Shown here piece after piece: positions 40,391-59,186 of a DNA stretch of 64,000 bases. The stretch comes from Bacteroidetes bacterium HGW-Bacteroidetes-1 (GTDB lineage: Bacteria > Bacteroidota > Bacteroidia > Bacteroidales > F082), in assembly GCA_002842755.1 (NCBI GenBank), contig PHDU01000022.1, forward strand, positions 1-64,000, written 5' to 3'. Made by a program: the position numbers and the translations under genes. Within the stretch, counting starts at the first letter, position 1. The number at the start of each line of letters is the position of its first letter. Under the pieces are notes generated by a model that was not told where the DNA came from, did not search any database, and was given only the letters and a program-made list of their open reading frames with translations.

Positions 40391-41074
40391 ATGAAAGTTA
40401 TTGAAATAAATGGTATCGAAAAAACTTACGACGAAAAAACTGTTCCTGTTCATGCCGTAAATGGAATAGACTTATCTTTTGAACAAGGTGAATTTGTTGC
40501 CATTGTCGGGCCATCTGGTTCTGGAAAAACAACCTTGCTAAATATAATTGGTGGTCTCGATAAACCTAATTCAGGTGAAATAATCATATCTGGAACCAAT
40601 ATCGGGGCGCTATCATCTTCGAAAATGATCGACTTCCGGTTAAACAATATAGGATTTGTTTTCCAGGCATATAACCTTATTCCGGTATTGACGGCAAAAG
40701 AGAATATCGAATTCATTATGGATCTACAAGGACGGTCTAAAGTTGAAAAAGATTCACGCTCTTTAGAACTGCTAAAATCTGTTGGCTTAAATGACAGAGC
40801 TAACAGTCGTCCGAATAAATTATCGGGTGGACAACAACAACGTGTAGCTGTGGCAAGGGCATTGGCCTCAAAACCAAAATTTATTCTTGCAGATGAGCCT
40901 ACGGCAAACCTCGATTCAAAATCTACTGAAACACTTCTCGAAATAATGGAAAAGCTTAACAAAGAAGAGAATATTACATTTATTTTTTCTACTCACGATG
41001 CAAGAGTAGTTAAAAAAGCCAGAAGAGTTATAACAGTTGAAGATGGCAAGGTTGTTTCTGATGAAAAATGTTAA
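40391..41074 (+). CDS. ABC transporter ATP-binding protein, LolD/MacB type
   Basis: ATPase subunit of 227 aa energising the two upstream permeases. Walker A is GPSGSGKTT (about residues 39-47), Q-loop VFQAYNLIPVLTAKEN, signature LSGGQQQRVAVARAL, Walker B ILADEPTANLD with catalytic Glu, and H-loop FSTHDARV. The QAYNLIP and STHD forms and size are standard for the LolD/FtsE/MacB group. The stop codon overlaps the start region of the next gene, so all five genes are likely to be one operon. Nothing is missing. Confidence 0.95.
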   Translation: MKVIEINGIEKTYDEKTVPVHAVNGIDLSFEQGEFVAIVGPSGSGKTTLLNIIGGLDKPNSGEIIISGTNIGALSSSKMIDFRLNNIGFVFQAYNLIPVLTAKENIEFIMDLQGRSKVEKDSRSLELLKSVGLNDRANSRPNKLSGGQQQRVAVARALASKPKFILADEPTANLDSKSTETLLEIMEKLNKEENITFIFSTHDARVVKKARRVITVEDGKVVSDEKC

Positions 41075-43191: not shown

Positions 43192-46100
43192 ATGAAAAAA
43201 ATTATTTTTTTACTAATTCTTTTATGTTTTTCTATGGCAATTTTGGCACAAGCTGATAAGGTTGTGATTGAAGAAAATGATAATGGAGCTAAACTCCTTG
43301 TCAATGGAAAAGCTTTAATGATAAATGGCATAAACTGGGATTATTTCCCCATTGGCACCAATTACTCCTACAGCTTATGGACTCAATCCGACGACTTTAT
43401 CCAGCAGGCGCTTGATGATGAAATGACGTTGTTAAAAAACATGAATGTGAATACCATTCGTGTTTATTCAGGAATTCAACCCAAATGGATTAAATATATC
43501 TATGAAAATTATGGCATTTATACCATGCTTAACCATTCTTTTGGAAGATATGGGCTTACACTTAATGGGGCATGGGAAGCAAACACTGATTATGCTGATC
43601 CCCGAGTAAAAGAACTCCTCTTAAAAGAAGTAAACGAGTTGGTGGAAGAATATAAGAACACCCCAGGGCTTTTGTTATATCTGTTGGGTAATGAAAACAA
43701 TTATGGATTATTTTGGCGTGGTGCCGAAACTGAGGATATTCCGATGGAAGACAGGGAATCGACACAAATGGCTCGTTACCTCTACAAATTATTCAACGAA
43801 GCCTCCCTTTCCATGAAAGCCATTGATCCAAATCATCCGGTGTCAATCTGCAATGGCGATTTACTGTTTCTTGATATCATCGCGGAAGAATGTAAAGACG
43901 TGGATATATTTGGCATAAATGTTTACAGGGGCATTTCATTTACCGATCTTTTTAAAAGGGTAAAAAAAGAATATGGAAAGCCTGTCTTATTGTCTGAATT
44001 TGGGTCTGATGCATTTAATGCCATCACCATGGAAGAGGCTCAGAAAGAACAGGCAATATACAACGTAGCCAATTGGAAAGAAATATATGAAAATGCTGCC
44101 GGAATGGGCAAAGCAGGTAATTCATTGGGAGGTTTTACTTTTCAGTTTAGTGATGGTTGGTGGAAGTACGGCCAAACCGATTTCCTTGATGTGCATGATT
44201 CCCACGCTTCATGGGCAAACGGTGGATATTTGTTTGATTACCAAGCGGGCGAGAACAATATGAATGAGGAGTGGTTTGGAATTTGCGCCAAAGGCCCAAC
44301 CAATACAAAAGGGTTTTATCAATTGTACCCCAGAGCATCTTATTATGCATTGAAAGAGGCACACCAACTAAATCCCTATGCCGATGGCACCAATTTACAA
44401 ACCATACAGCAACACTTTAGTAACATTCAGGTGGTGGAATCGCTTCTGAAGGCCAGGGGTGACAAGGCGGCGCAGGAAGGTGAAAAATTAAAAAAAATAA
44501 GCCTCAGCCGATTAGGAGCACAATACACAACATTTAATACCGGTGGGGATTTAATCTCAACACCTAAGAATGCTGCCCCAGGAAGTAATACATACCCGAA
44601 CCAGCTGGGTTTTGATCAGATGCAATCCTTTTATTTTGGTGTTGAAGCCAATCCGGCGCCCAATTTCAGAGCCAATGTAGAGGTAAATGTTTTGGGAAAT
44701 GTTGCGCAGAATCCAATTGATCAGATCTTTTATGAAAACAGGGGTCGTCCTATTGAAGTGACTGGTGACGACGGTAACCTGAATATTGAGTCAATAAACA
44801 GGGTTCAGATTTACAAGGCAAGCTATGAGTGGGATCATAAATTGTTTAAAATCAATGGTTTTTATCGCACCGGTCATTACCATTGGGGCTATGAAGGCGA
44901 TTTCTTTGGACTTTACCCCGAAGCCAATTACGGACCTAATATTGATATTTATAATGGAATTGCACCTTTTGGATTTGAAATGGAAGGCAAGAAACAATTC
45001 AGTGATTTTAAACTGGCTTTTGGACCACAGTTATGGTGGGGAGCTAACCCTGCAGTATTGCTGAAATACAGTAAAAGCATAGCAAAAATAAACTTCACCG
45101 GAATTTATCATGAGGACCTTGCGCAACTTGGACTGACAGAAAGTTCGTTTGCCATTCCGCAACCCAAAACCAGGCGACTGACCTTACATTTGAACAGGGA
45201 ATTTGGCAAGTTCGGCGTAAATGTGGGAGGAATCTGGGCAGGGCAACCACTGCAGGGCAGAGAATTTCAGGTTGTGAGAGGCGAAGAAGGAGATTATACT
45301 GTTTATAAAGATGAAATTAAGTCACAGGATAATTTCGGTGGCAAAATTAAATTTACATACACTGGAGGAAGGTTCAACTGGTATGCCCAATCAACTGCAA
45401 TGGGTCTGGTAGCAAATGGGGGTGCAGACCAGACAATTACTTTTACAGGTTGGAAGTTAAAAGACAGTGGCAGTGGAAACCAGTATAATTTTCTGTCAGG
45501 GTTTACCTATATGATTGGAGATATTCAGGTGGCCCCGAATTTCCTGTGGCAAAAACCCATCGAAGGTCCTATTCCTGCTGATGTAAATGCCCCAGGCAGA
45601 CCCAGGAACATCCTCGATGATCCGTTTGTGGTAAGAGCCAACAGGGAACAGGTAGCAGGTGAAATATTGTTTACTTACGACCCTGCACCCGGTACCTGGA
45701 TGTACAACTGGGATAGTGACCGCTCAGAAGATGCAGGACTTGCCGTAAGTTTAGGTTTTGTATACCGGCATTTGCCAACTACACAGGATGCTGCTATAGG
45801 AATTTTACCCGATGGCAGAACAACTTTCGCTTTTCCGGGCGCTGCCCCTGCCAAAGATTTATGGGAAATCCACTCCAGACTGGTTTCAAAAGTAAGTGGC
45901 AATTTTGGTTTTATTGCCAACTTATATGCCGGTGATGCTCAAGGAAATGGGAGTGATTCCAGGCTTATCAGGCGCTATAGTATGGATTTACGTATGATTT
46001 ACAAAGAAGTAAAACTCACTTCTTTCGTCAGGGTTAACGACTGGGGTCCTTACGACTATCATCGCGATTACAACCTTACTTTTCCGCTTCAACTTATGGC

Positions 46101-46326
46101 TGACATTTCAACCTCTTTGCGAAAACCCGACTGGTTTGACCTTCCTAACACTGAAATTGGATTACGGGCAACATACCGTACCCTCGACAGATATTCTCCC
46201 CGCTACTCGCCAACCCAAAAGCTTGACCCAAGTGGAATGCTGGTTCCCGATCCCGAGGCTGTTGGATTTGATAATGGCAATGAATGGGAAATCAGGACTT
46301 ATGTGCGTATAAATATTGGTAAATAA
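43192..46326 (+). CDS. TIM-barrel glycosidase fused to a C-terminal outer-membrane beta-barrel
   Basis: Exported protein of 1044 aa. After the signal peptide (IIFLLILLCFSMAILAQ) comes a glycosidase-like (beta/alpha)8 domain (about 25-395) related to the GH2 catalytic domain and beta-1,3-glucan-acting relatives: INGINWDYFPIG, NTIRVYSGIQPKWI, and probable acid/base Glu168 in LLGNENNYG and nucleophile Glu269 in LLSEFGSDA. From about residue 490 to the end the pattern changes to long amphipathic strands with aromatic girdles (SINRVQIYKASYEWDHKLFKINGFY, split; FKLAFGPQLWW; DLRMIYKEVKLTSFVRVND) ending WEIRTYVRINIGK, as in outer-membrane barrels. I know of no described enzyme with this layout. It is the first gene of the glucan locus; the next starts 14 bp later. 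Enzyme family and barrel are inferred from pattern. Confidence 0.75.
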   Translation: MKKIIFLLILLCFSMAILAQADKVVIEENDNGAKLLVNGKALMINGINWDYFPIGTNYSYSLWTQSDDFIQQALDDEMTLLKNMNVNTIRVYSGIQPKWIKYIYENYGIYTMLNHSFGRYGLTLNGAWEANTDYADPRVKELLLKEVNELVEEYKNTPGLLLYLLGNENNYGLFWRGAETEDIPMEDRESTQMARYLYKLFNEASLSMKAIDPNHPVSICNGDLLFLDIIAEECKDVDIFGINVYRGISFTDLFKRVKKEYGKPVLLSEFGSDAFNAITMEEAQKEQAIYNVANWKEIYENAAGMGKAGNSLGGFTFQFSDGWWKYGQTDFLDVHDSHASWANGGYLFDYQAGENNMNEEWFGICAKGPTNTKGFYQLYPRASYYALKEAHQLNPYADGTNLQTIQQHFSNIQVVESLLKARGDKAAQEGEKLKKISLSRLGAQYTTFNTGGDLISTPKNAAPGSNTYPNQLGFDQMQSFYFGVEANPAPNFRANVEVNVLGNVAQNPIDQIFYENRGRPIEVTGDDGNLNIESINRVQIYKASYEWDHKLFKINGFYRTGHYHWGYEGDFFGLYPEANYGPNIDIYNGIAPFGFEMEGKKQFSDFKLAFGPQLWWGANPAVLLKYSKSIAKINFTGIYHEDLAQLGLTESSFAIPQPKTRRLTLHLNREFGKFGVNVGGIWAGQPLQGREFQVVRGEEGDYTVYKDEIKSQDNFGGKIKFTYTGGRFNWYAQSTAMGLVANGGADQTITFTGWKLKDSGSGNQYNFLSGFTYMIGDIQVAPNFLWQKPIEGPIPADVNAPGRPRNILDDPFVVRANREQVAGEILFTYDPAPGTWMYNWDSDRSEDAGLAVSLGFVYRHLPTTQDAAIGILPDGRTTFAFPGAAPAKDLWEIHSRLVSKVSGNFGFIANLYAGDAQGNGSDSRLIRRYSMDLRMIYKEVKLTSFVRVNDWGPYDYHRDYNLTFPLQLMADISTSLRKPDWFDLPNTEIGLRATYRTLDRYSPRYSPTQKLDPSGMLVPDPEAVGFDNGNEWEIRTYVRINIGK

Positions 46327-46340
46327 AAAAACACAAAAAG

Positions 46341-48206
46341 ATGAAAACAAATATTCTCATCATTTTAATGAAATATATCCCCATAGGTATTCTTGTTTTA
46401 CTTTTCATGGGGTGCGAACGCGAACTCAGCGATCTGAAACCGGCTACATTTCCTGATACTCCCGAAGTATTTATTGACGGGTTTAGTGCCGGACTTAACT
46501 ATGCTGCCTTCGGAGGCTCAGTGCCAACCGCTTTTGATGTAGATACAAAGGAAACATACAACAATTCGAAAGCTTCTATGCGAATTGATGTTCCTAACGC
46601 AGGGGATCCCAGGGGAGCTTATGCCGGAGGTGTTTACTTTACCGGAGTGGGCAGAGACTTATCGGGCTATAATGTTCTGACATTTTGGGCAAAAGCTTCA
46701 GAGTCAGCAGTTATTGATGTGGTGGGTTTTGGGAACGACCTTGGGGCATCCAAATACCAGGCAACCATCTCAGGTTTACAGGTAAGTACCAATTGGAAAA
46801 AATATTATATCCCACTGCCCAATTCATCAGTACTTACTGCTGAGCGAGGGATGTTTTTCTATTCAACGGGGCCAGTAGATGGTAAAGGTTATTCTTTCTG
46901 GATAGATGAAGTGAAGTTTGAAAATCTGGGAACCATTGCCCATCCGCAGTTTACTATTTTTAATGGTGAAGACAAGGTAGAAACAACATTTATAGGAGTT
47001 ACACAAAAGATCACTGGATTAACGGCAATCTACAACCTGCCTGAAGGAGTTAATCAATCGGTAAATGCTGCTTCGGCATATTTTACTTTTACTTCATCCA
47101 ACGAGAGCATAGCTACCGTTAATGAAGCTGGTGAAGTTAGCGTAGCGGGAGGCCCCGGCAGTGCCGAAATCACAGCTATGGTAGGTGATGCCGCTACCCT
47201 GGGTTCACTCACTTTACAATCCATAGGCAATTTTCAGCAGGCCCCTCTGCCGGTTCATGCCGCTGATGACGTAATTTCCATTTTCAGCAATGCATATACC
47301 AACGTGCCTGTGAATTACTACAATGGTTACTGGGCGCCATATCAAACCACTTTGTCGGCCGATTTTGAGGTAAACGGAGATCAGATTCTTCAATATATTG
47401 ATTTTAACTTTGTGGGTATTGAATTCAGCTCCCCAACCGTGGATGCCACAGCAATGACTCACCTGCACCTGGATATCTATATACCGAATACCCTCGCAGC
47501 AGATGCACAGCTGAAAATAGAACTGGTGAATGAAGGCGCCGCCAGCTCAGCTACATATATTGTCAATATCCCTGTTTCAGAGTCAAAGAAATGGATTGGT
47601 CTTGATTTGCCATTTTCCGAATTTACCGGATTAGGCAGCACCGCAAAACTGATGCAGATCATTTTTGTGAACGAAAACAATATGATTTCAGGATTCTATG
47701 CCGATAATATTTATTTCTACAGCAATGGAACCCCACCTCCTCCGGGCGGCGAACCAGCTGTTGCAGCGCCAACTCCAACCCATCCGGCGGCCAATGTGAT
47801 TTCGGTGTTCAGCGATGCCTATACAGCTATTCCTGGAACCGACCTTAATCCTCCCTGGGGACAGGCTACGGTTGTCACAACAGTGCAAATTCAGGGAAAC
47901 AACACTTTGAAATATGCCGGCCTCAACTATCAGGGAATTCAATTGGGTGCAAGCCAGAATGTTTCGTCAATGGTATTTTTGCATCTGGACTTCTGGACCG
48001 CGAATTCAACGGTGCTCAATATTTATCTGATCAGTCCCGGTCCTGTTGAAACTCCTTATTCTCTGACAGTTCCCACATCAGGATGGACAAGTATCGACAT
48101 TCCGCTATCATCCTTTGCACCGGTGAGTCTAAGCGATGTTATTCAACTCAAATTCGAAGGGAATGGTGACATCTATCTGGATAACATTTACTTCCGGAAA
48201 AATTAA
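46341..48206 (+). CDS. Surface lipoprotein with carbohydrate-binding-type domains
   Basis: Lipoprotein of 621 aa (or 612 from ATG 46368, which gives a cleaner signal peptide). The lipobox is LFMGC; the acidic residues just after the Cys (CERELSD) resemble the Bacteroidota surface-export signal. Four domains without catalytic motifs: a jelly-roll-like domain (about 40-200; SMRIDVPNAGD, LTFWAKAS, YSFWIDEVKFEN), an Ig-like BIG2-type domain (about 205-295; SSNESIATVNEAGEVSVAG) and two similar beta-sandwich domains (about 300-460 and 475-621; VISIFSNAYT / VISVFSDAYT, LHLDIY / LHLDFW, DNIYF). The last domain recurs in the T9SS protein at 60188. It probably binds the glucan at the cell surface in place of a SusD/SGBP (inference). 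Confidence 0.8.
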   Translation: MKTNILIILMKYIPIGILVLLFMGCERELSDLKPATFPDTPEVFIDGFSAGLNYAAFGGSVPTAFDVDTKETYNNSKASMRIDVPNAGDPRGAYAGGVYFTGVGRDLSGYNVLTFWAKASESAVIDVVGFGNDLGASKYQATISGLQVSTNWKKYYIPLPNSSVLTAERGMFFYSTGPVDGKGYSFWIDEVKFENLGTIAHPQFTIFNGEDKVETTFIGVTQKITGLTAIYNLPEGVNQSVNAASAYFTFTSSNESIATVNEAGEVSVAGGPGSAEITAMVGDAATLGSLTLQSIGNFQQAPLPVHAADDVISIFSNAYTNVPVNYYNGYWAPYQTTLSADFEVNGDQILQYIDFNFVGIEFSSPTVDATAMTHLHLDIYIPNTLAADAQLKIELVNEGAASSATYIVNIPVSESKKWIGLDLPFSEFTGLGSTAKLMQIIFVNENNMISGFYADNIYFYSNGTPPPPGGEPAVAAPTPTHPAANVISVFSDAYTAIPGTDLNPPWGQATVVTTVQIQGNNTLKYAGLNYQGIQLGASQNVSSMVFLHLDFWTANSTVLNIYLISPGPVETPYSLTVPTSGWTSIDIPLSSFAPVSLSDVIQLKFEGNGDIYLDNIYFRKN

Positions 48207-48247: not shown

Positions 48248-49078
48248 ATGAATAAAATAAATAAATTCAAGAGAATCCTCATCCAATCCATACTCTTGCT
48301 GGTGATGGTTATTTTTTGGGGTTGTGAGCGCGACAACTTCCAAAAACTGGATGAACGCAATTGGCAATTAGCCTGGAGCGATGAATTTAACGGCACTGCC
48401 GGTCAATTACCTGATGCTGCAAAGTGGAAGTTTGATCTGGGCACAGGTCAGGATGGATGGGGTAACAGCGAATTGCAAAGTTATACCAATAGTCCGGCCA
48501 ATGTGTCGCTCGATGGCGATGGCAACCTGCTAATTACCGCCATCAGGGAAGGCAATTTTACATCGGCAAGAATAAAAACTCAGGGCTTATTTGCTCAGAA
48601 ATACGGCCGTTTTGAGGCGCGCCTGAAAACCCCTTATGGACCGGGATTGTGGCCTGCTTTCTGGATGCTGGGTGAAAACATTGAAACAACGCCCTGGCCC
48701 CAATGTGGCGAAATAGATATTATGGAACTGAGAGGGCAGGAACCTCACATTATCCACGGCACCCTTCACGGCCCCGGATATTCGGGCGGAAATCCCATTA
48801 CGAAAAGTTATGCCCTTGTTAACGACCGGTTCGACACTGATTTCCACATTTATGCCATTGAATGGGATAAAGATAAGATTGATTTTTTTGTGGATGATTA
48901 TCTTTATCAGCGCATTGAACGAAGTGATGTTCCTGGTGAATGGGTTTACGACCAACCGTTTTTCATCCTGCTCAATGTAGCGGTAGGCGGAAATTATGTC
49001 GGATTTCCTACTGCCCAAACCCCTTTTCCGCAAAAAATGATCATCGATTATGTGAGGGTTTATCAGGAGGTTAAATAG
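48248..49078 (+). CDS. GH16 endo-beta-1,3-glucanase (laminarinase-like) lipoprotein
   Basis: Lipoprotein of 276 aa; signal peptide with lipobox IFWGC and CERDN after it, compatible with surface display. The catalytic domain fills the rest: LAWSDEFNG at the start, WGNSELQSYTN, GRFEARLKTPYGPGLWPAFWMLG, and the GH16 catalytic motif GEIDIMELRG with nucleophile Glu155, Asp157 and acid/base Glu160, then HGTLHGPGYSGG and a final FPQKMIIDYVRVYQ strand. The motif of form EIDIxE with an inserted residue (beta-bulge type) and the WPQCGEIDIME context are those of bacterial laminarinases. It cuts beta-1,3-glucan internally. ATG 48248 is preferred over 48224 because it starts the signal peptide. Confidence 0.95.
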   Translation: MNKINKFKRILIQSILLLVMVIFWGCERDNFQKLDERNWQLAWSDEFNGTAGQLPDAAKWKFDLGTGQDGWGNSELQSYTNSPANVSLDGDGNLLITAIREGNFTSARIKTQGLFAQKYGRFEARLKTPYGPGLWPAFWMLGENIETTPWPQCGEIDIMELRGQEPHIIHGTLHGPGYSGGNPITKSYALVNDRFDTDFHIYAIEWDKDKIDFFVDDYLYQRIERSDVPGEWVYDQPFFILLNVAVGGNYVGFPTAQTPFPQKMIIDYVRVYQEVK

Positions 49079-49195: not shown

Positions 49196-52100
49196 ATGAA
49201 AATGAAAGATACCATGCGCCCGTTTTTTATGAGCGTTGTAAGTGATTCGAATCACTGGATGTTTATTGCAAGTAACGGAGGACTAACTGCCGGGCGAAAA
49301 AACCCCGAATATGCTTTGTTTCCTTATTATACCGATGACAAAATTATCGAATCGGCCGACATCACCGGAAGTAAATCCATTTTCCGGATAGAAACAAATG
49401 GCGATGTCAGGATTTGGGAACCATTTTCTGAAAGGTTTACCGGAAAATATTCCATAAGCCGGAACCTGTATAAAAGTATCTATGGCAATAAAATCATATT
49501 TGAAGAAATCAATCATGATTTTGGCCTGATATTCAGATATCAGTGGAACTCATCGAATCTATATGGTTTTGTCAGAAAGGCTGAATTAATTAACACATCG
49601 GACTGCGATTACCAGATCACTCTGCTGGATGGAATACAAAATATAATGCCTTTTGGTGTTCCCAGTGACCTGCAACGATCGACCAGCAATCTGGTTGATG
49701 CATACAAAAGAAGTGAACTGGAGCCTGAGTCCGGTATCGGGATTTATGCCCTCAGCGCCATTATTGTTGACAAAGCTGAGCCTAGTGAAGCGCTGAAAGC
49801 GAACATTGTCTGGTCTTTGGGACTTGAATCCCCAAAACATCTGCTGTCCTCTCTGCAACTCGATAATTTCAGAAAGAACAGGGAAGTTGCAGATGAAACA
49901 GATATTAAAGGAGAAAAAGGAGCCTATTTTCTTTTTGCTGAAATTCTGCTATCTGCCCAAAGCCAGAAAAACTGGAAACTCATAACCAATGTCAATCAGA
50001 ATCACGCGCAGATTATCGGACTTTCTCAAAATATAAAGGACACTATCACTCTTGAAAAGCAAATTCAGGACGATATTAATTCAGGAACGGGAAAATTAAT
50101 CAATCTTGTGGCAAGTGCTGATGGACTGCAATTCACCGCCGAAAAACTGAATGACTCACGCCACTTTTCCAATGTACTGTTCAACATCATGCGGGGAGGT
50201 ATTTTTGATGATGGATACCTGGTTAAGAAAGAGGATTTTGTTAATTATCTGGCCAAAGCCAATAAGGAAGTATCGATAAGAAATCAGGAATTTTTCGGCA
50301 ACCTTCAGAATACTTTCAATCAATCTGAATTGCATAATCTCTTGTCAGAAAGTAAAGATGCTGATCTGATCAGATTATCCGTCGAGTATTTGCCTTTAAA
50401 ATTCAGCCGCAGACACGGTGATCCCAGCCGTCCCTGGAATTATTTTACCATCAATATTCAAAACGAAACCGACGGATCAGAAATTCTGGATTATGAGGGA
50501 AACTGGAGGGATATTTTCCAAAACTGGGAAGCGCTGGCTCACTCCTATCCCGAATTTGTAACCGGTATGATTTTCAAGTTTCTTAATGCTTCCACATTCG
50601 ATGGTTATAATCCTTACCGCGTCACCAAAGATGGATTCGACTGGGAAACCATTGAACCCGACAATCCATGGTCATATATCGGATACTGGGGTGATCATCA
50701 GGTTATTTACCTACAGAAATTCTTCGAAATCACAGAAAAATTCCACCCAGGCACTTTGCAGTCATTTTTTGACAAGGAATGGTTTGTTTATGCTGCTGTT
50801 CCATACAAAATCAAGCCTTTCAGCGAAATTTTAAAAAACCCGAAAGACACCATTGAATTTGACCATAAATGGGATGATGCCATCAGAAAACAACGCGATT
50901 TACTTGGGGCTGACGGAGCACTGCTAACAGCCAATAACAAGGATATCTACCGGGTTAACTTCATTGAAAAAATCCTCGCCACAGTGCTGGCAAAAATGTC
51001 GAACCTGATACCTGAAGCCGGCATTTGGATGAACACACAACGCCCTGAATGGAACGATGCCAACAACGCCCTGGTAGGCAATGGTGTTTCAATGGTTACG
51101 CTTTATTATCTGCACCGTTTCATGAAGTTTTTCCAGCAAATTGTTGAACGCTCAGAACTTGAAAACATAAAATTATCAGGCGAACTGATTGAATTCTACC
51201 ACAGTGTAAGAGAAACCCTTAAGGAATTCAGCCCCATGTTGTCAAAATCCCTCAGCGATAAAGACAGAAAAGCTATTCTGGATCGCTTGGGAAAGGCTGC
51301 CTCAGATTACCGGCAGCAAATTTACCAAAGCGGTTTCTGGGGTAAGAAAAGGACTGCCTCAATGGCCGGCCTTAAAATATTTACGCAAGTTTGCCTCGAT
51401 TTCATCGAACATTCCATCCGCGCCAACCAACGAGCCGACAAACTATACCATGCCTACAATCTGATGACTGCCTCAGAAACAGGAGTTTCCTGTTCACACC
51501 TGAGCGAAATGCTTGAAGGCCAGGTTGCCGTGTTAAGTTCAGGCTATTTAACTTCTGAGCAGGCTCTGGAGGTATTGGATGCACTAAAAAGCAGTGCATT
51601 GTTCCGACAGGATCAATACAGCTATATCTTGTACCCCAACAAAAAATTACCCGGCTTTTTGCAAAAGAACAATATTCCTTCCGCCGGAGCGCAGGAATCG
51701 GAACTGATTAAAAAACTGGTTTATGATGGAAATAATGAAATTGTTGATCAGGATATTCAGGGAGGCTTGCATTTCAATGGAAATTTCAAAAATGCTTCTG
51801 ATCTGGAAGCGGCTCTGAACAAATTATCTGAAAGTGTTTACCATGAACTTATTGAAAGAGACCGAAAACTTCTTATGGATATTTTTGAAGAAGTATTCCA
51901 CCACAAAGCTTTTACAGGAAGGTCGGGCACTTTCTATTCTTACGAAGGACTCGGTTCCATATATTGGCATATGGTATCGAAGTTTCATCTGGCGGTTCAG
52001 GAATGTTGCCTGAAAGCCATTGAAACAGGCGCCGATAAAAAAGTCATTGGTCGTTTATTAGACCACTATTACGAAATTGAAGCAGGAATCGGAGTGCATA

Positions 52101-52558
52101 AATCTCCTGAGCTTTATGGTGCCTTCCCAACCGATCCGTATTCGCACACCCCGCTGCACCGGGGTGCCCAGCAACCCGGCATGACCGGTCAGGTTAAGGA
52201 AGATATTCTGGTCAGGTTTGGTGAGTTGGGGGTATTTGTTAGCGAAGGGAAATTGTGTTTCAACCCAGGTTTGCTCCGAAACGAAGAGTTTCTTGCTGAT
52301 GGCGGAATATTTGAATACAGGAAAAGCACCGATGGTAACGATAAAATAAAACTCACTCCCCGCCAACTGGCATTTACCTATTGCCAGACACCAGTGGTGT
52401 ATTCTCTTTCCGAAACCAACAGCATCACAGTTTTTTATACCAACGGAGATAAAAAAGAGGTTATCGAAGGCAATACCTTAAATCAGGAAATCAGCAATCT
52501 GATATTCAAAAGAACCGGAGCAATTGAGAAAGTTGAAGTATCAATAAACAGAAAATGA
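49196..52558 (+). CDS. Beta-1,3-glucan phosphorylase, GH149/GH161-like
   Basis: Cytoplasmic protein of 1120 aa without signal peptide. It looks like an inverting glycoside phosphorylase of the GH94/GH149/GH161 group: an N-terminal beta-sandwich (NHWMFIASNGGLTAGRKNPEYALFPYYTDDKI, split over several conserved blocks), then a helical toroid with NWEALAHSYPEFV, NPWSYIGYWGDHQVIYLQ and PEWNDANNALVGNG, in which Asp621 matches the catalytic acid of cellobiose phosphorylase (WND), and a later TGRSGTFYSYEGLGSIYWH. Length (about 1100) and a setting of GH16, GH17 and GH30 fit GH149 or GH161, which phosphorolyse beta-1,3-glucans to glucose-1-phosphate. GH149 is my preferred reading; I cannot separate the two by eye. 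Its stop overlaps the next start (ATGA). Confidence 0.72.
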   Translation: MKMKDTMRPFFMSVVSDSNHWMFIASNGGLTAGRKNPEYALFPYYTDDKIIESADITGSKSIFRIETNGDVRIWEPFSERFTGKYSISRNLYKSIYGNKIIFEEINHDFGLIFRYQWNSSNLYGFVRKAELINTSDCDYQITLLDGIQNIMPFGVPSDLQRSTSNLVDAYKRSELEPESGIGIYALSAIIVDKAEPSEALKANIVWSLGLESPKHLLSSLQLDNFRKNREVADETDIKGEKGAYFLFAEILLSAQSQKNWKLITNVNQNHAQIIGLSQNIKDTITLEKQIQDDINSGTGKLINLVASADGLQFTAEKLNDSRHFSNVLFNIMRGGIFDDGYLVKKEDFVNYLAKANKEVSIRNQEFFGNLQNTFNQSELHNLLSESKDADLIRLSVEYLPLKFSRRHGDPSRPWNYFTINIQNETDGSEILDYEGNWRDIFQNWEALAHSYPEFVTGMIFKFLNASTFDGYNPYRVTKDGFDWETIEPDNPWSYIGYWGDHQVIYLQKFFEITEKFHPGTLQSFFDKEWFVYAAVPYKIKPFSEILKNPKDTIEFDHKWDDAIRKQRDLLGADGALLTANNKDIYRVNFIEKILATVLAKMSNLIPEAGIWMNTQRPEWNDANNALVGNGVSMVTLYYLHRFMKFFQQIVERSELENIKLSGELIEFYHSVRETLKEFSPMLSKSLSDKDRKAILDRLGKAASDYRQQIYQSGFWGKKRTASMAGLKIFTQVCLDFIEHSIRANQRADKLYHAYNLMTASETGVSCSHLSEMLEGQVAVLSSGYLTSEQALEVLDALKSSALFRQDQYSYILYPNKKLPGFLQKNNIPSAGAQESELIKKLVYDGNNEIVDQDIQGGLHFNGNFKNASDLEAALNKLSESVYHELIERDRKLLMDIFEEVFHHKAFTGRSGTFYSYEGLGSIYWHMVSKFHLAVQECCLKAIETGADKKVIGRLLDHYYEIEAGIGVHKSPELYGAFPTDPYSHTPLHRGAQQPGMTGQVKEDILVRFGELGVFVSEGKLCFNPGLLRNEEFLADGGIFEYRKSTDGNDKIKLTPRQLAFTYCQTPVVYSLSETNSITVFYTNGDKKEVIEGNTLNQEISNLIFKRTGAIEKVEVSINRK

Positions 52559-53922
52559 TGAGCGACAACACTACAAAATTATCTGTAAGGGAAAAAATCG
52601 GTTATGGACTGGGCGATACAGCCTCGCACTTTGTGTGGGACATGGTTGGCTTCTGGATTTTAATTTTTTACACCGATACTTTTGGAATTTCTGCGGCAGC
52701 TGCCGGAACGATTATGCTTATTGCCCGCTTCTGGGACATGCTCAGCGATCCTATCATGGGCATTATTGCCGACAGGACCAACACCCGCTGGGGCAAGTTC
52801 CGTCCCTATTTACTCTGGATGGCACTTCCATACAGCCTACTTGCAGTACTCGCTTTTTCCACTCCCGATATCGGGCAAACCGGCAAAGTGATTTACGCAG
52901 GAGTTACCTATTTGTTGCTGATGACCGTTTTTACAGCCATAAATCTGCCTTATTCCTCGCTGGGTGCTGTAATGACTTCCGACTCTTACGAAAGGGCCGG
53001 ATTAAATTCATACCGCTTTATATTTGCTTTTGTGGGGCAGTTCATCGTTACCGGCACCGCACTTTATCTTGCCAATTATTTCGGCAAGGGCGACAATGCC
53101 AAAGGCTATCAATACACACTAATGCTGTTTGCGGCCATCAGCTTTGTGCTGTTCATGATTACTTTCAGAACAACAAAGGAAAGAGTATTGCCTCCGCCGG
53201 AGCAGAAACAAAATCTAAAACAGGATCTCAAGAACCTGTTCAGGAACCGGCCCTGGGTTATCCTGTTCTTTGTAGGTATTGTTTCATTTGTCATGTTTGC
53301 CCTGCAAAATCTGTCCATTGCCTATTATTTCAAATATTACATCGGGCAGGAGCAAAATGTGCAGCTGTTTAATGTCATCGGCACTGTTGCACTCATTGCG
53401 GGCATCCCTTTCTCGAAACCTTTGGCCAAACGATTTGGAAAACGCAATGTATATATCGCAAGTTCACTGCTCTCCGGTCTGTTTTTCATTTTGTTGTATC
53501 TTCCCGGGAACGAAAATATTTATTCCATTTACATACTGAACATTCTGGCCAAATTTACCTATGCCCCTGCCGTTCCATTGCTATGGACCATGCTTGCCGA
53601 CACAGCCGATTTCTCGGAATGGAAATTTGGCCGCCGCGCCACCGGGCTGGTATTTTCAGCAGCCACTTTTGCACAAAAGGCTGGTTGGGGTATTGGCGGT
53701 GCGCTGGCCGGATGGTTTCTATTTTTGTTTCAGTTTGTTCCCAATGCTGAGCAATCGGCCACTTCGCTCAACGGAATAAAACTGATGATTTCCGTTTTCC
53801 CGGGCGTGCTTTATATGTCGTGCGCCATTCTGCTGTATTACTATGCCATTGACCACAAAACCTGCCTTCTGATGCAGCAGGAACTGGAGCAACGAAGAAA
53901 AGGTTCACAATTTAATGATTAA
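52555..53922 (+). CDS. MFS sugar transporter, GPH (glycoside-pentoside-hexuronide) type
   Basis: Inner-membrane symporter of 455 aa with about 12 helices. Motifs of the GPH family (TC 2.A.2, MelB-like): GYGLGDTASHFVWDMVGFW, FWDMLSDPIMGIIADRTNTRWGKFRPYLLW and, in the second half, WTMLADTADFSEWKFGRRATG. It probably brings beta-glucan oligosaccharides or gentiobiose-type disaccharides into the cytoplasm with cations, next to the phosphorylase whose gene it overlaps by four bases. A second GPH transporter lies at 56789-58219; the two may divide beta-1,3- and beta-1,6-linked substrates (inference). Confidence 0.92.
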   Translation: MMSDNTTKLSVREKIGYGLGDTASHFVWDMVGFWILIFYTDTFGISAAAAGTIMLIARFWDMLSDPIMGIIADRTNTRWGKFRPYLLWMALPYSLLAVLAFSTPDIGQTGKVIYAGVTYLLLMTVFTAINLPYSSLGAVMTSDSYERAGLNSYRFIFAFVGQFIVTGTALYLANYFGKGDNAKGYQYTLMLFAAISFVLFMITFRTTKERVLPPPEQKQNLKQDLKNLFRNRPWVILFFVGIVSFVMFALQNLSIAYYFKYYIGQEQNVQLFNVIGTVALIAGIPFSKPLAKRFGKRNVYIASSLLSGLFFILLYLPGNENIYSIYILNILAKFTYAPAVPLLWTMLADTADFSEWKFGRRATGLVFSAATFAQKAGWGIGGALAGWFLFLFQFVPNAEQSATSLNGIKLMISVFPGVLYMSCAILLYYYAIDHKTCLLMQQELEQRRKGSQFND

Positions 53923-53929
53923 AACGGCT

Positions 53930-55234
53930 ATGAAATCAATCAAAATCAATAAAATCAACAGATCGGTTAAAAGGATTCTTCGGTTCCTGGTTTTGCCTTT
54001 ATCAATTTTGTTTGTTGCTTCCTGTTCGCTTCGCCCGGTCAGCACCGGCAAAACTGCGGCCGAAATTCTGGGTAACCCTGACTACCAGGCCATTTCGTAT
54101 GGAGGTTATCGGGGAATGACAAGAGAAGAACAACCGACCATCCCCCAGCTTAAAGAAGACATGAAAATTCTGTCGGCAATGGGAATTAAGGTGCTGCGCA
54201 CCTATAATGTTCATCATGAAGAGGCCGCCAATCTGCTTGAAGCAATCAGCCAGCTTAAAAAGGACGATCCTGATTTTGAAATGCATGTGATGCTTGGCGC
54301 CTGGATTGACTGTAAAAATGCATTTACTGAGCTTCCCGACCGCATAAGAAACGAAGAAAGCCCCCAGAATGCTGTTGAAATAGATCGTGCGATTGAGCTG
54401 ACTCAGCAATATCCTGATATTGTTAAAATTATTGCCGTGGGTAATGAAGCCATGGTGCATTGGGCCTGGAATTATTACGTTGAACCAGGCATCATCCTCA
54501 AATGGGTAAAGCATTTACAAAAACTGAAGAAAAACGGCGATTTGCCCGAAACTTTGTGGATCACGAGTTCTGACAATTTTGCATCGTGGGGTGGCGGTGG
54601 AAGCGAATATCATCTGGAAGAGCTGAACGAACTCATCCGGTCGGTTGATTACATTTCGATGCACACTTACCCCATGCACGACACCCACTACAATCCCGAT
54701 TTCTGGGGAGTACCCGAAGATGAGGAAGCATTAACGGACATGGAAAAAATTGATTCGGCCATGATACGGGCAAGAGATTATGCCATCTCTCAATACGAAA
54801 GTGTGGTAACCTACATGCAAAGCCTTGGCGTGAATAAACCCGTGCATATTGGTGAAACCGGTTGGGCAACTCAATCCAGTGGATTTTATGGCAATACAGG
54901 ATCCAGGGCTTGTGATGAGTATAAGTCGGCCGTTTATTTCCATATGATGCAGGAATGGACAAACTTAAACGGCATTACCTGCTTCTATTTTGAAGCATTT
55001 GATGAACAATGGAAAGATGCTGCAAATCCGCTGGGTTCCGAAAACCATTTCGGGCTGATAAACCTTCAATCTCAGGCCAAATACGCCTTATGGGATTTGG
55101 TGGATGCTGGCGTTTTTGAGGGTCTGACCCGTGACGGAAAACCCATCACCAAAACATTTAATGGCGACAAAGCCACCATGATGCAGGAAGTGAAACTACC
55201 GCCTACTGCAAAGGAAATCGGGGAGCGCAAGTAA
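53930..55234 (+). CDS. GH17 beta-1,3-glucosidase/glucanase lipoprotein
   Basis: Lipoprotein of 434 aa; signal peptide and lipobox FVASC (no acidic cluster after the Cys, so probably periplasmic). The GH17 (beta/alpha)8 domain fills the protein: AISYGGYRG, IKVLRTYNVHHEE, acid/base Glu173 in AVGNEAMVHW, SVDYISMHTYPM, nucleophile Glu309 in HIGETGWATQSS, and CFYFEAFDEQWKD. GH17 enzymes act on beta-1,3-glucan chains, releasing glucose or short products or transferring glucosyl units. The start chosen is eight bases after the transporter stop; ATG 53915 also exists. The gene is followed by the GH30 gene after 15 bp. Confidence 0.9.
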   Translation: MKSIKINKINRSVKRILRFLVLPLSILFVASCSLRPVSTGKTAAEILGNPDYQAISYGGYRGMTREEQPTIPQLKEDMKILSAMGIKVLRTYNVHHEEAANLLEAISQLKKDDPDFEMHVMLGAWIDCKNAFTELPDRIRNEESPQNAVEIDRAIELTQQYPDIVKIIAVGNEAMVHWAWNYYVEPGIILKWVKHLQKLKKNGDLPETLWITSSDNFASWGGGGSEYHLEELNELIRSVDYISMHTYPMHDTHYNPDFWGVPEDEEALTDMEKIDSAMIRARDYAISQYESVVTYMQSLGVNKPVHIGETGWATQSSGFYGNTGSRACDEYKSAVYFHMMQEWTNLNGITCFYFEAFDEQWKDAANPLGSENHFGLINLQSQAKYALWDLVDAGVFEGLTRDGKPITKTFNGDKATMMQEVKLPPTAKEIGERK

Positions 55235-55249: not shown

Positions 55250-56746
55250 ATGAAAGCTTTTGTAAAACAGCTGTCTGTTTTTTTTCTCATAATTACACTG
55301 ATGAGTAGTTGTTCAAATTCAAAAAAACTGGAGGTTGAAATTTTTGAGACTTCGGCAAATGGCAATCAGCTGACCAGATTAGCTGAATTTCCTGTAGCAG
55401 ACTCCATCGTAAAAATTTCTGTTTTGCCGGGCGAAGAGTTTCAGTTAATCACCGGATTCGGAGGTTCCTTTACCGAAGCTTCTGCTCACCTGCTCAACCG
55501 GTTAAATAAGGAGAACCGCGATAAAATTCTGGAAGCTTATTTTGGAGAATCGGGCTCCAGGTACTCACTGACGCGTACCCACATGAATTCCTGCGATTTT
55601 TCCCTGGGCAACTATTCCTATGCGCCTGTTGAGGGGGATAAGGAATTGGAGCATTTTTCCATTCAGGAAGATATGGATGACATCATCCCCATGATCAAAG
55701 ATGCCAGATCCCTTTCAAAGGATGGTTTTAAAATTATCTCATCGCCTTGGACAGCTCCTCCGTGGATGAAAGACAACAAAGACTGGCGCGGCGGAAAACT
55801 ATTGCCTGAATATTATAACACCTGGGCTTTGTTCTTCTCAAAATATATCGATGCATACAAGAAGGAAGGGATTGATATCTGGGGATTTACAGTTGAAAAT
55901 GAACCGTTGGGAAATGATAGTAATTGGGAAAGTATGCATTATAGCCCACAGGAAATGAATGAATTTGTGAAAAACCATTTAGGTCCCAGATTGAATGCCG
56001 ATGGACATAAAGTAAAAATTCTGGGTTTTGATCAAAATCGTGGAGAAGAGCTAAAAAATTGGGTAGATGTCATGTTTGATGATGTTGATGCTAATCAATA
56101 CTACGATGGTACAGCAATTCACTGGTATGCAAGTACCTATGATTATTTTCCAGAATCATTGCAATACGCTTATATAAAAGCTCCCGGCAAACATTTGATA
56201 CAAACGGAAGCTTGTGTTGATGCCCAGGTTCCCCGGTGGAAAGACGATGCCTGGTACTGGTCAAAAGAAGCCACTGATTGGGGCTGGACATGGGCTCCCG
56301 ATGATCAAAAATATCTGCATCCCAAATATGTACCGGTATTTCGTTATGCCAGAGACATCATCGGCTGCCTGAACAATTGGGTTGATGGGTGGATCGACTG
56401 GAACATGGTTTTAGATAAACAAGGCGGTCCGAACTGGGCTAAAAACTGGTGCGTGGCACCTGTTATTGTTGACCCTGAACAGGATGAAGTTTACTTTACA
56501 CCTTTGTATTATACCATGGCTCATTTCAGTAAATTTATCAGACCGGGTGCTGTTAGAATAGGATTTGAAAATGCTGATAATAGTATTATGGTTACTGCTA
56601 CTCAAAATCCTGATGGCTCCATTGCCGTAGTTATTTTTAATCCAAATGAAGAAGCGAAAAGAATCCGGCTTTCATTAAAAGAAAAATCAGTCGAATTCTC
56701 TATTAATGAGACATCAATACAAACCATTTTGATTAAAGGGTTATAA
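55250..56746 (+). CDS. GH30 beta-1,6-glucanase-like lipoprotein
   Basis: Lipoprotein of 498 aa with lipobox LMSSC and neutral residues after the Cys (periplasmic likely). The GH30 fold is clear: ITGFGGSFTEASAHLL, YSLTRTHMNSCDFSLGNYSY, SSPWTAPPWMK, acid/base Glu218 in TVENEPLG, nucleophile Glu320 in LIQTEACVD, GWIDWNMVLD and the C-terminal side beta-domain (SIAVVIFNPNEEAKRIRL). The order, length and glucocerebrosidase-like blocks suit subfamilies 1/3 with beta-1,6-glucanase or beta-glucosidase activity. In a laminarin locus it would remove beta-1,6-linked branches. It is 42 bp before the second GPH transporter. Confidence 0.92.
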   Translation: MKAFVKQLSVFFLIITLMSSCSNSKKLEVEIFETSANGNQLTRLAEFPVADSIVKISVLPGEEFQLITGFGGSFTEASAHLLNRLNKENRDKILEAYFGESGSRYSLTRTHMNSCDFSLGNYSYAPVEGDKELEHFSIQEDMDDIIPMIKDARSLSKDGFKIISSPWTAPPWMKDNKDWRGGKLLPEYYNTWALFFSKYIDAYKKEGIDIWGFTVENEPLGNDSNWESMHYSPQEMNEFVKNHLGPRLNADGHKVKILGFDQNRGEELKNWVDVMFDDVDANQYYDGTAIHWYASTYDYFPESLQYAYIKAPGKHLIQTEACVDAQVPRWKDDAWYWSKEATDWGWTWAPDDQKYLHPKYVPVFRYARDIIGCLNNWVDGWIDWNMVLDKQGGPNWAKNWCVAPVIVDPEQDEVYFTPLYYTMAHFSKFIRPGAVRIGFENADNSIMVTATQNPDGSIAVVIFNPNEEAKRIRLSLKEKSVEFSINETSIQTILIKGL

Positions 56747-56788: not shown

Positions 56789-58219
56789 ATGTCAACGTAC
56801 GAAACGCCACTAAAAGACAGGGTTCCCTTTAGGCAAAAAGCAGCTTTTGGAGCCGGCCATTTGGTTAATAACCTATTACCTGGTTCACTTGGGGTTTTCG
56901 CCTTCTTTTTGCTTACAGCTTTTGGAATGGACCCATTCCTTGCTGGTTTGCTCGGAGGTTTACCGCGGTTTTTTGATGCCATAACCGATCCCATAATGGG
57001 TTATATTTCAGATAATACAAAATCCAGATTTGGAAGACGGAAACCATACATTTTTATAGGGGCAATTCTCAGCGGCGTTTTGTTTGCTGTTTTATGGCAG
57101 CTCAATCCCGAAAATACACAAATGTATAACTTCTGGTATTTTCTGATTTTATCATTGGTCTATTTAACCGGTAATACCATATTTTCAACGCCGCTAATCG
57201 GACTGGGCTATGAAATGACTTCTGATTATAACGAACGTACGCGTTTGATGGGTTTTTCGCAAACTATGGGACAAATGGCATGGATGATTGTACCCTGGTT
57301 CTGGGTAATTATTGCCAATCCAGATATATTTGATTCTCAAGCTATTGGAGTTCGAAGGTTGTCTGTTATTGTCGGGGCAATTTGTATGGTTTTGGGCATT
57401 TTGCCTGCCTTATTCTGTAAAGAGATTGACCAGACTAACCTTACCAACCGAGATGAACTCACATTGAAAAACATTGCCAAAAATTTCAAGAGCTTGATCC
57501 ATAACATGGTATTGATTTTTAAAAACACAACATTTGTAAGACTTTGCACAGCAACTTTTCTGGTATTCAACGGCTTTCAAATGGTAGCATCATTCAGTTA
57601 TTTTATTATTGTTTTCTACATGTTCAAGGGAGACTATGGTCTTGCAGGAACATGGCCAGCCTGGTTCTCTACAATTAGTGCAATGTTCACAGCGTTTTTA
57701 ATAATACCGGTAATTACATGGATGGCAAACAGATGGGGCAAAAGAAAGGCCTTCATATATGCCACAGCCATTTCGATTGTAGGTTACGCCCTCAAATGGT
57801 GGGGTTTTAATCCTGATAATCCGTGGTTGATTTTTATGCCCTTACCCTTTATGGTATTCGGAATTGGTGGATTGTTCACCCTCATGATGAGCATGACCGC
57901 CGATGTATGCGACCTCGACGAATTAAACAATGGTATGCCTCGCAAGGAAGGTACCTTCGGTGCCATTTACTGGTGGATGGTAAAACTTGGGCAAGGTCTT
58001 GCTTTGGTATTGGGGGGCCTGGTACTTAAGCTTGTAGGTTTCGACCAGAATGCCGCACAGCAAACCGCCGATACGATTACAAATCTAAGGCTCGCAGATA
58101 TTATTGTGCCTGCATTTACCGCGGCTTTGGCAATTTGGGTCATGTGGAAATATGACCTTACTGAAGCAAAAGCAAGAGAAATTAAAGAAGAGCTAATTGA
58201 TCGAAGGGGAGAGTTATAA
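56789..58219 (+). CDS. MFS sugar transporter, GPH type (second copy)
   Basis: Inner-membrane transporter of 476 aa, about 12 helices, family GPH: FGAGHLVNNLLPGSLGVFAFF, LPRFFDAITDPIMGYISDNTKSRFGRRKPYIFIG, EMTSDYNERTRLMGFSQTMGQ and, late, MTADVCDLDELNNGMPRKEGTFGAIYWW. Only distantly like the first transporter (52555), so it is not a recent duplicate. The position between the GH30 gene and the pair of cytoplasmic GH17-like genes suggests it imports the products those enzymes use. It is followed after 46 bp by the first GH17-like gene. Sugar specificity cannot be read from sequence. Confidence 0.92.
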   Translation: MSTYETPLKDRVPFRQKAAFGAGHLVNNLLPGSLGVFAFFLLTAFGMDPFLAGLLGGLPRFFDAITDPIMGYISDNTKSRFGRRKPYIFIGAILSGVLFAVLWQLNPENTQMYNFWYFLILSLVYLTGNTIFSTPLIGLGYEMTSDYNERTRLMGFSQTMGQMAWMIVPWFWVIIANPDIFDSQAIGVRRLSVIVGAICMVLGILPALFCKEIDQTNLTNRDELTLKNIAKNFKSLIHNMVLIFKNTTFVRLCTATFLVFNGFQMVASFSYFIIVFYMFKGDYGLAGTWPAWFSTISAMFTAFLIIPVITWMANRWGKRKAFIYATAISIVGYALKWWGFNPDNPWLIFMPLPFMVFGIGGLFTLMMSMTADVCDLDELNNGMPRKEGTFGAIYWWMVKLGQGLALVLGGLVLKLVGFDQNAAQQTADTITNLRLADIIVPAFTAALAIWVMWKYDLTEAKAREIKEELIDRRGEL

Positions 58220-58265: not shown

Positions 58266-59186
58266 ATGTCATTCAGAAAAGAAAGATTACTTAACTATAA
58301 GAGGCCTGAAGGCATCCGGAAGGAGTTGTTGTACGATGACAAGTCTGCTGAGGATATCAGGAATTTGTTTCTGGAAGTTTTACACGGTGGCGTAAGTGGA
58401 TTCTGCTTCAGCATTTATGAAGATGGTCAAAAACCTGGAACTCAGATTTCTGAAGCACAGGTGAGAAGAAGAATGCAAATCCTTAAACGTTATGCCAATT
58501 GTGTGCGATCTTTTTCCTGCATCGAGGGAAATGAGCTTGTTCCCAAAATAGCGAAAGAATTTGGCATGAAAACACTTGTTGGTGCCTGGTTAGGAACTGA
58601 TGAAGAAAAAAACCTTCAGGAAATTGAGAATCTGATTCAACTGGCCAAAGAAGGATATGTTGATTATGCTGCGGTGGGCAATGAAGTACTCTACAGGAAA
58701 GATTTAACGGAACATCAACTTCTGGATATCATTTATCATGTGAAAAAAGAAATTCCAAATATTCCTGTTGGCTATGTTGATGCATACTATGAATTTGTGC
58801 AAAGACCGGAAATAGCAGAAGCTTGTGATGTGATTTTTTGCAATTGCTATCCTTTCTGGGAAGGTACTAGCTTCAACGATTCATTTGAGCACATGCAACA
58901 GATGTATCTTCAGGCTTTTATGGCGGCTAACGGGAAAAAAGTGATCATTACTGAAACAGGCTGGCCAAGTCAGGGAGATGCCCTGGAAGTAGCAGTACCT
59001 TCGACTATAAATGCCATGAAGTACTTCATCAACACGAATCTGTGGGCAATGGATGAAAATATTGAAGTTTTCTATTTCGCCTCATTTGATGAATCGTGGA
59101 AGGTTGGCCCGGAAGGAGATGTAGGCGCCCATTGGGGTATCTGGGATAAGTCAGAAAAATTAAAATTTGTAGATGAACACATTTAA
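58266..59186 (+). CDS. GH17-like glycosidase, cytoplasmic
   Basis: Protein of 306 aa with no signal peptide. GH17-type (beta/alpha)8 fold: GVSGFCFSIYEDGQKPG at the start, AVGNEVLYRK with acid/base Glu140, CDVIFCNCYPFW, VIITETGWPSQGD with nucleophile Glu230, and a terminal VFYFASFDESWKVGPEGDVGAHWGI. Both catalytic glutamates are kept. In the cytoplasm it can only see imported oligosaccharides, so a beta-glucosidase or glucosyl-transfer role is likely. It overlaps the next GH17-like gene by 14 bp, so the pair is translationally coupled and may form a complex (inference). Sequence differs from its neighbour in most of the outer loops. Confidence 0.85.
   Translation: MSFRKERLLNYKRPEGIRKELLYDDKSAEDIRNLFLEVLHGGVSGFCFSIYEDGQKPGTQISEAQVRRRMQILKRYANCVRSFSCIEGNELVPKIAKEFGMKTLVGAWLGTDEEKNLQEIENLIQLAKEGYVDYAAVGNEVLYRKDLTEHQLLDIIYHVKKEIPNIPVGYVDAYYEFVQRPEIAEACDVIFCNCYPFWEGTSFNDSFEHMQQMYLQAFMAANGKKVIITETGWPSQGDALEVAVPSTINAMKYFINTNLWAMDENIEVFYFASFDESWKVGPEGDVGAHWGIWDKSEKLKFVDEHI

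Follow-up and report, generated by a model that had tools for sequence, protein, structure and literature searches.

Of the carbon dioxide fixed each year, more than 10% goes into laminarin (PMC11345257), whose uptake in Bacteroidota is usually inferred from genes for SusC/SusD importers. The beta-1,3-glucan locus of Bacteroides uniformis has the order SusC, SusD, SGBP-B, GH16 and GH158, and its GH158 enzyme (BuGH158) carries an Ig-like C-terminal domain (PMC7157763). Gene groups that lack susCD have been set apart as "CAZyme clusters" (PMC10108472), and in that study the variant-1 laminarin locus of the NS4 metagenome-assembled genome (MAG) W_MB115 lacks susCD. Laminarin loci of Formosa encode an MFS transporter fused to a GH17 enzyme (PMC6246565), the closest described idea to the gene reported here. 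This gene occupies 43192-46326 of the window, by which we mean the 64,000-nucleotide stretch (positions 1 to 64,000 of contig PHDU01000022.1) analysed from Bacteroidetes bacterium HGW-Bacteroidetes-1. In it, a glycosidase domain is fused to a predicted outer-membrane beta-barrel. As in the Formosa protein, which comes from a similar locus, a putative laminarin hydrolase would be joined to a transporter of sugars; the Formosa fusion, however, belongs to the inner membrane, and the one described here is predicted to lie in the outer membrane. The fusion may represent an overlooked way, independent of the usual SusC/SusD importer, by which Bacteroidota-related bacteria take up beta-glucan.

The gene has probably been recorded before under other names. 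Muricauda laminarin loci contain an upstream "GH2 beta-glycosidase" together with GH16, GH149, GH17, GH30 and MFS genes and often a LuxR gene (PMC13188888); a second study lists "GH149-GH0-GH30_1-GH17" and similar loci, the GH0 gene being among the top 10% of expressed genes in one MAG (PMC10108472). The locus in the window has the same gene company (LuxR, GH2, GH16, GH149, GH17, GH30, MFS, GH17), and the published "GH2" and "GH0" genes are probably orthologues of the fusion gene, matched here by gene content alone. Both papers treat the gene as a plain enzyme, and the words "outer membrane" have no match in the main text of either. Searches of open-licence PMC papers listed no report of a glycosidase fused to an outer-membrane barrel.

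The fusion is a single frame without an internal stop and a single copy in its genome. A scan of genome contigs found at least 577 stretches encoding relatives, and the 80 best of them were taken further. Every one spans both halves, with 64-90% identity over the best segment; one of them (L053) stops at residue 955 where its contig ends. Their records belong to Bacteroidota, Balneolaceae, one Calditrichia MAG and one Thermoanaerobaculia MAG. The full-length protein was present in 7 of 100 related genomes, its own included, and a C-terminal piece in one further genome. A profile of residues 398-1044 matched 36 places in 35 of 395 genomes of the phylum. Frames of 1028-1084 residues accounted for 33 of these places, and the remaining three were fragments (a 300-residue frame, a 99-residue piece with its partner piece on a second contig, and a remnant), so that these genomes yielded no complete barrel lacking the enzyme. 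Within the window's class, 17 of 18 enzyme matches lay in frames of 1041-1093 residues, the exception being genome G624. These counts rule out two genes joined by error, an outcome that an earlier note on this DNA had named as fatal to its proposal of a glycosidase fused to a barrel; the frame, the fold predictions and the relatives all confirm that proposal. In an alignment of 76 sequences including the window's (A1; L053, L077, L080, L099 and L110, which are cut or near-copies, were omitted), Q20 at the end of the predicted signal peptide was invariant. Cys12 lies inside the hydrophobic core of the signal peptide and, judged by eye, is not part of a lipobox.

The AlphaFold model of the full chain (predicted local distance difference test, pLDDT, 78.6; predicted template-modelling score, pTM, 0.58) places a triosephosphate isomerase (TIM)-barrel domain at residues 24-397, followed by helices at 402-432. 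The earlier note had placed a TIM-barrel hydrolase at residues 25-395 with Glu168 and Glu269 as catalytic candidates, and the model and the alignments support both predictions. The nearest solved structures belong to GH158 (9p2f, Z 27.3, 6.2 Å over 302 aligned residues; BuGH158, 6pal, Z 26.0). Other clan GH-A folds are close (tomato GH5 mannanase, Z 25.6; GH157, Z 25.4), so that GH158(Pro) is ahead by 1.7, and BuGH158 scores level with the rows that follow. Searched against the sequences of the PDB, the enzyme-domain profile found BuGH158 first (E 2.3e-7, partial alignment) and GH158(Pro) second (E 1.2e-4). N167 and E168, in the motif GNEN, and E269, in EFG, were identical in all 91 aligned enzyme domains. 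In the profile alignment, E168 and E269 fall on the GNE and TEWG stretches of BuGH158; by residue count their counterparts there are E137 and E220, the mutation of which abolished activity (PMC7157763).

The domain thus shares with GH158 (BuGH158, 6pal; GH158(Pro), 9oro) the clan GH-A TIM barrel, the predicted acid/base Glu after strand 4 with an Asn before it, the predicted nucleophile Glu after strand 7, and a beta-1,3-glucan locus with a GH16 neighbour. It differs in that the similarity is remote, with partial alignments, and in that no Ig-like C-terminal domain of the BuGH158 type was found in the models; residues 382-435 are predicted to be helical, and the membrane barrel follows. For these two reasons we call the enzyme GH158-like and do not assign it to GH158. 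The sole Pfam match over cut-off was Glyco_hydro_2_C, on residues 33-279; a GH72 match (E 1.5e-4) fell under its cut-off. GH2 proteins combine a TIM barrel with sandwich and Ig-like domains, and GH2 membership was ruled out, since no other GH2 domain matched the chain at E<=1.

The C-terminal half is probably a 24-strand outer-membrane barrel, to judge from the structure models. Residues 467-1044 had no Pfam or NCBIfam match at E<=1, and the barrel profile had no match among PDB sequences at E<=10. Both AlphaFold models, that of the full chain and that of residues 398-1044 alone (pLDDT 81.0, pTM 0.78), contain 24 long strands between residues 436 and 1043, a count that leaves out short hairpins within loops. 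Polar and apolar residues alternate along these strands (mean 0.716 against 0.376 +/- 0.054 in shuffled controls, a value that none of 1000 shuffles reached; for the strands of the enzyme domain, which do not alternate in this way, 720 of 1000 shuffles did reach the observed value), which supports the barrel but is no independent proof of it, because the strand limits were taken from the model. The gaps between strands alternate as well, 12 being long (mean 23 residues) and 11 short (mean 5 residues), so that short turns would lie on one side and long loops on the other, as in an outer-membrane barrel, and by the usual rule both chain ends would be periplasmic.

Structural searches gave the same answer. 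With the C-terminal domain alone, all 50 rows listed by Foldseek were outer-membrane barrels (TonB-dependent receptors, MOMP, OprD-type porins, LptD and AlgE), the best being BtuB3G3 (9.5e-12). All 50 rows listed by a second aligner were likewise outer-membrane barrels. AlgE, at the top (Z 15.5, 4.4 Å, 258 aligned residues), the OprD family, chitoporin, maltoporin and Wzi matched part of the barrel; the ushers and the TonB-dependent barrels matched along its whole length, and a levan SusC scored Z 11.9. The models and searches rule out a C-terminal half made of soluble beta-sandwich domains, which the earlier note had set as a refutation. Its barrel stood, but the start moved from about residue 490 to about 436, and its expectation of 16 to 22 strands gave way to the 24 predicted here, beside the TIM barrel that it had also expected.

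The barrel families compared here (TonB-dependent transporters, ushers and type V autotransporters) do not accommodate the protein. SusC and other TonB-dependent transporters were ruled out because neither the plug (PF07715) nor the receptor barrel (PF00593) matched at E<=1; as a control, the same Pfam library found the plug in the SusC of locus L207. TonB receptors have 22 strands, against 24 predicted here. The locus resembles SusC/SusD systems in having a barrel gene beside a surface lipoprotein and glycoside hydrolases in a glucan locus, but Pfam detects no plug and no CarboxypepD_reg domain in the chain, the barrel is covalently fused to a hydrolase, and no SusD relative lies beside it. 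The 24-strand ushers PapC and FimD align along the whole barrel (Z 12.1-13.7, covering the C-terminal model from about position 32-38 up to 647), but they serve pilus secretion, and the likeness is one of fold only; the usher sequence model (PF00577) is not matched, the C-terminal half having no Pfam match at E<=1.

The order of signal peptide, enzyme, helix and C-terminal barrel resembles type V secretion, so the enzyme might be a passenger that is exported through or by its own barrel and displayed; the helix that precedes strand 1 would then be the pore linker. Classical autotransporters have a 12-strand C-terminal barrel, whereas 24 strands are predicted here, and the chain has no match at E<=1 to an autotransporter model such as that of the barrel domain (PF03797); type V membership was rejected on these grounds. 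Furthermore, most of the relatives of the enzyme that have no barrel (enzyme-only relatives, described below) retain the helices as far as about residue 425, so that this region seems to be part of the enzyme, and self-display would leave the co-occurring lipoprotein described next without a reason. We regard self-display as improbable.

The gene downstream of the fusion encodes a predicted surface lipoprotein with Big_2 and CBM11-like stretches, a candidate glycan binder. At all 72 loci of relatives whose downstream sequence reaches 2.2 kb or more, it is the next gene (71 by the distance rule, plus L035, where it is next though farther off); flank lengths vary, with at least 5 kb on each side at 49 of the 80 loci. 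A GH16 gene starts within 4 kb at 63 of 66 loci, and at the other three it follows the lipoprotein further on. Pfam and NCBIfam scans, together with a SusC/SusD profile search of the window, found neither SusC nor SusD in 43192-64260, so that the earlier note's description of the fusion as the first gene of a glucan locus without SusC holds for this region. The profiles, on which statements of absence from flanks depend, were built from 9 SusC and 10 SusD sequences.

The acidic residues that follow the lipid-bearing Cys of Bacteroidota lipoproteins act as a surface-export signal (PMC5080379). Such residues were found in 47 of the 61 downstream lipoproteins with a lipobox (68 examined) and in 45 of 60 GH16 proteins (72 examined), but in 2 of 30 GH17 proteins (34 examined) and 0 of 15 GH30 proteins (30 examined); the lipobox pattern is crude, matching also in 13 of the 80 fused proteins. 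Because the pattern resembles the export signal, the binder lipoprotein and GH16 are probably outside and GH17 and GH30 inside.

We suggest that the enzyme-barrel and its lipoprotein form an entry module for beta-1,3-glucan pieces that works like SusC/SusD without a TonB plug, and we lean, with some reserve, towards this reading. The GH16 lipoprotein would trim a laminarin-like glucan outside the cell, the surface lipoprotein would hold the glucan, and the resulting oligosaccharides would pass through the barrel. The GH158-like domain, a putative endo-beta-1,3-glucanase in front of the large, probably 24-strand barrel, would cut them, most likely on the periplasmic side, where it should lie by default because it is N-terminal to strand 1, and would so pull the flow inward; GH17 and GH30, the inner-membrane symporters and the GH149 phosphorylase would complete the breakdown. 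The enzyme could possibly cut glucan as it enters. The transport, the substrate, the side of the membrane and the order of these steps are what we infer. The barrel-lipoprotein module, the conserved loops and the rarity of SusC/SusD nearby fit an uptake channel with its own binder. With regard to the loops, outer loops of outer-membrane barrels are commonly variable, whereas those predicted here appear unusually conserved in the modelled topology: the share of the commonest residue was 0.78 in the outer loops, 0.75 in the strands and 0.70 in the turns, compared with 0.78 in the enzyme domain. Four of the 12 outer loops reached 0.90-0.95, and three stood at 0.61-0.66.

The opposite direction of transport, a channel that secretes glucan and carries a hydrolase for editing, in the manner of systems that export alginate or cellulose, would accord with the alginate exporter AlgE having the highest structural Z, although AlgE is tied within 1 Z unit with porins. 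The scanned proteins of 43192-64260 included no glycosyltransferase but did include a phosphorylase, two sugar transporters, GH17 and GH30 enzymes and a regulator candidate, and the same enzyme has SusC/SusD in view at 5 of 21 enzyme-only loci. We consider export very improbable.

A natural comparison is provided by the enzyme-only relatives, which were 64-69% identical to the window's domain at the six loci measured. In the taxonomic order of genome G203, the enzyme was present in 50 of 128 genomes, with 51 matches. Of these, 28 had frames of 1007-1105 residues and 20 had frames of 433-507 residues; one more lay in a 940-residue frame at the beginning of its contig, and 2 were fragments. All 20 enzyme-only loci of this order plus G624 (n=21) were compared with 24 of its 28 fused loci. 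The lipoprotein adjoined the gene at 24 of 24 barrel loci and at 0 of 21 enzyme-only loci (one remote match lay 9.3 kb away), whereas SusC/SusD were in view at 0 of 24 and 5 of 21, one of the five being G222, at 12 kb. Fisher tests that ignore kinship gave p values of 7e-12 for the lipoprotein and 0.017 for SusC/SusD. Many enzyme-only contigs are short, and in some cases, such as G521 and G218, the gene is broken. A tree of 60 enzyme domains showed 6 changes each for the barrel and the lipoprotein. The lipoprotein followed the barrel in each of the 4 independent comparisons with good support, a number too small for a sign test to attain 0.05 (p 0.125). A single gain of the barrel was not rejected (approximately unbiased test, p-AU 0.059). 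The joint presence of barrel and lipoprotein, the conserved neighbourhood, the fusion, the two fold classes and the catalytic residues all come from computation.

G624, at locus L207, is one of the five with SusC/SusD in view and belongs to another lineage than the order of G203. Its enzyme is itself a lipoprotein, and the gene order there (SusC, SusD, a PKD lipoprotein, GH16, the enzyme, GH149) is close to that of the Bacteroides uniformis GH158 locus. At four of the first six loci, enzyme-only forms were accompanied by SusC/SusD, but the notion that they always are failed with 15 more. At the enzyme-only locus L196, another TonB-dependent receptor lies 4 kb away.

The main rival to an entry module is that the barrel is an anchor only, holding the glucanase at the outer membrane while another transporter takes up the products. 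Several enzyme-only relatives bear a lipobox in place of the barrel (e.g. G222, G203, L182, L184, L198 and L204-L207), and 16 of the 21 enzyme-only loci manage with neither a barrel nor SusC/SusD in view; SusD genes are also present elsewhere in the window's own genome (11 matches, 9 over cut-off). On the other hand, a barrel of 609 residues is a costly anchor where a lipid suffices, conservation in its predicted outer loops equals that of the enzyme domain, and the lipoprotein adjoins barrel loci but not enzyme-only ones, although linkage could explain this. We think it unlikely, on balance, that the barrel serves as an anchor alone.

Several of these points, and others, also weigh directly against an entry module. 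The enzyme-only loci with neither importer in view count against it, because three of them (L197, L203 and L205) have more than 8 kb on each side, so that a locus of this sort need not have such an importer nearby; the SusD genes elsewhere in the genome and the two of 80 barrel loci with SusC/SusD in view (L085, L103) count likewise. On the tree, SusC/SusD and the barrel showed no significant relation (0 comparisons the same way, 1.3 opposite, 2.7 without difference). The lipoprotein and the barrel adjoin, so that one deletion or insertion could move both without any partnership. The Formosa laminarin loci, which have similar enzymes, lie close to SusC/SusD genes (PMC6246565). With regard to the structure, Foldseek TM-scores for the barrel were low (0.21-0.43, with 11-17 Å over whole chains), and the pTM of the full chain leaves the place of the enzyme relative to the pore unfixed in the model. 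A conserved stretch of the enzyme at about residues 321-360 (DGWWK..., GENNMNEEW) is the worst modelled part (pLDDT 31-45); it might serve as a loop for substrate or touch the barrel. Finally, a plug-less barrel of such width would leak unless loops or the enzyme fill the pore, and no such filling was observed. A search for a contact surface among residues that distinguish the fused from the enzyme-only form gave only five positions (83, 220, 301, 422 and 424) with no clear face. Of the earlier note's suggestion that the fusion is the missing entry route, then, the association stands, in that barrel and lipoprotein co-occur and SusC/SusD are rare at barrel loci, but the enzyme-only loci with neither importer do not agree with it.

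A bolder version of the entry module would make the protein an enzyme-porin without a TonB plug, in which the catalytic domain is both the plug and the molecular sink of the 24-strand barrel, and would pair it with a surface binder of its own. It would be a new type of machine for glycan uptake, invented in parallel with SusC/SusD, serving beta-1,3-glucan use in many Bacteroidota, Balneolota and perhaps a few other lineages, and recorded only as "GH2" or "GH0". This we put forward tentatively, as rather doubtful in its full extent. If an entry module of either kind is real, a glycosidase is built into an outer-membrane channel, "CAZyme clusters" without susCD may amount to full uptake systems that surveys relying on SusC/SusD would overlook. 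Because a single bacterial order naturally contains both forms, fused and enzyme-only, the question of the entry route can be tested.

Features of the enzyme-barrel fusion gene and of the genes downstream of it (window coordinates)
Feature	Position	Strand	Evidence
Enzyme-barrel fusion gene	43192..46326	+	ORF (open reading frame), 1044 aa; architecture common to 80/80 fetched relatives
Predicted signal peptide, residues 1-20, ending ..LAQ	43192..43251	+	Sequence; predicted helix 2-18
Glycosidase TIM domain, residues 24-397	43261..44382	+	PF02836 E 6e-10; GH158 structures Z 26.0-27.3; BuGH158 profile match E 2.3e-7
Glu168, predicted acid/base (GNEN)	43693..43695	+	91/91; pairs with BuGH158 E137
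Glu269, predicted nucleophile (EFG)	43996..43998	+	91/91; pairs with BuGH158 E220
Linker helices, residues 398-435; most enzyme-only relatives end at about residue 425	44383..44496	+	AlphaFold model, enzyme-only relatives
Predicted outer-membrane beta-barrel of 24 predicted strands, residues 436-1044; the loop/turn pattern puts both ends in the periplasm	44497..46323	+	Structure models, structural searches, alternation
Predicted surface lipoprotein, Big_2 and CBM11-like stretches, glycan-binding candidate	46341..48206	+	PF02368 over cut-off, PF03425 below; ..FMGCERELSDLK; next gene 72/72
GH16 lipoprotein, predicted surface endo-glucanase; TTG start at 48224 also possible	48248..49078	+	PF00722 E 8e-26; FWGCERDNFQKL
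GH149 beta-1,3-glucan phosphorylase	49196..52558	+	NCBIfam NF058639, 1746.5 bits vs cut-off 1150
GPH family sugar symporter	52555..53922	+	TIGR00792, 413.8 bits vs cut-off 231.35
GH17-like lipoprotein, probably periplasmic	53915..55234	+	PF00332 over cut-off; relatives: lipobox, few acidic residues behind
GH30	55250..56746	+	PF02055 E 3.1e-76
MFS sugar transporter	56789..58219	+	PF13347
GH17-like enzyme	58266..59186	+	PF00332 E 1.4e-13
GH17-like enzyme	59173..60111	+	PF00332 E 2.2e-6, 28.0 bits, slightly under cut-off 28.2
Protein with type IX secretion tail	60188..61477	+	PF18962
LuxR/GerE-type regulator candidate, extends to contig position 64260	61567..64000	+	Weak GerE match under cut-off

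A homologue of the regulator candidate lies upstream of the barrel gene at L046, where it has Y_Y_Y, Reg_prop and GerE matches. Some losses of the barrel, those of G218 and of G524, which has both forms, look recent from their sequences. The frame at L165:2037-3464 (G218) ends before strand 1, with a diverged barrel remnant behind it, and G524 carries one fused and one enzyme-only copy. The same L165 contains, at 8617-10965, a 783-residue frame with an MFS transporter and a GH17-like part that resembles the Formosa fusion. Distant enzyme-only relatives in L166 and L171 (G176 and G238) are lipoprotein-like; that of L166, at about 27% identity, stands among GH149, GH17 and MFS genes, and that of L171, by eye, apparently does likewise. 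Directly upstream of the fusion gene, at 36901-42261, five genes encode a LolA-like protein, two MacB/FtsX permeases, an ABC ATPase and a DUF1302-type protein, a run that looks like a system for handling envelope lipoproteins or lipids.

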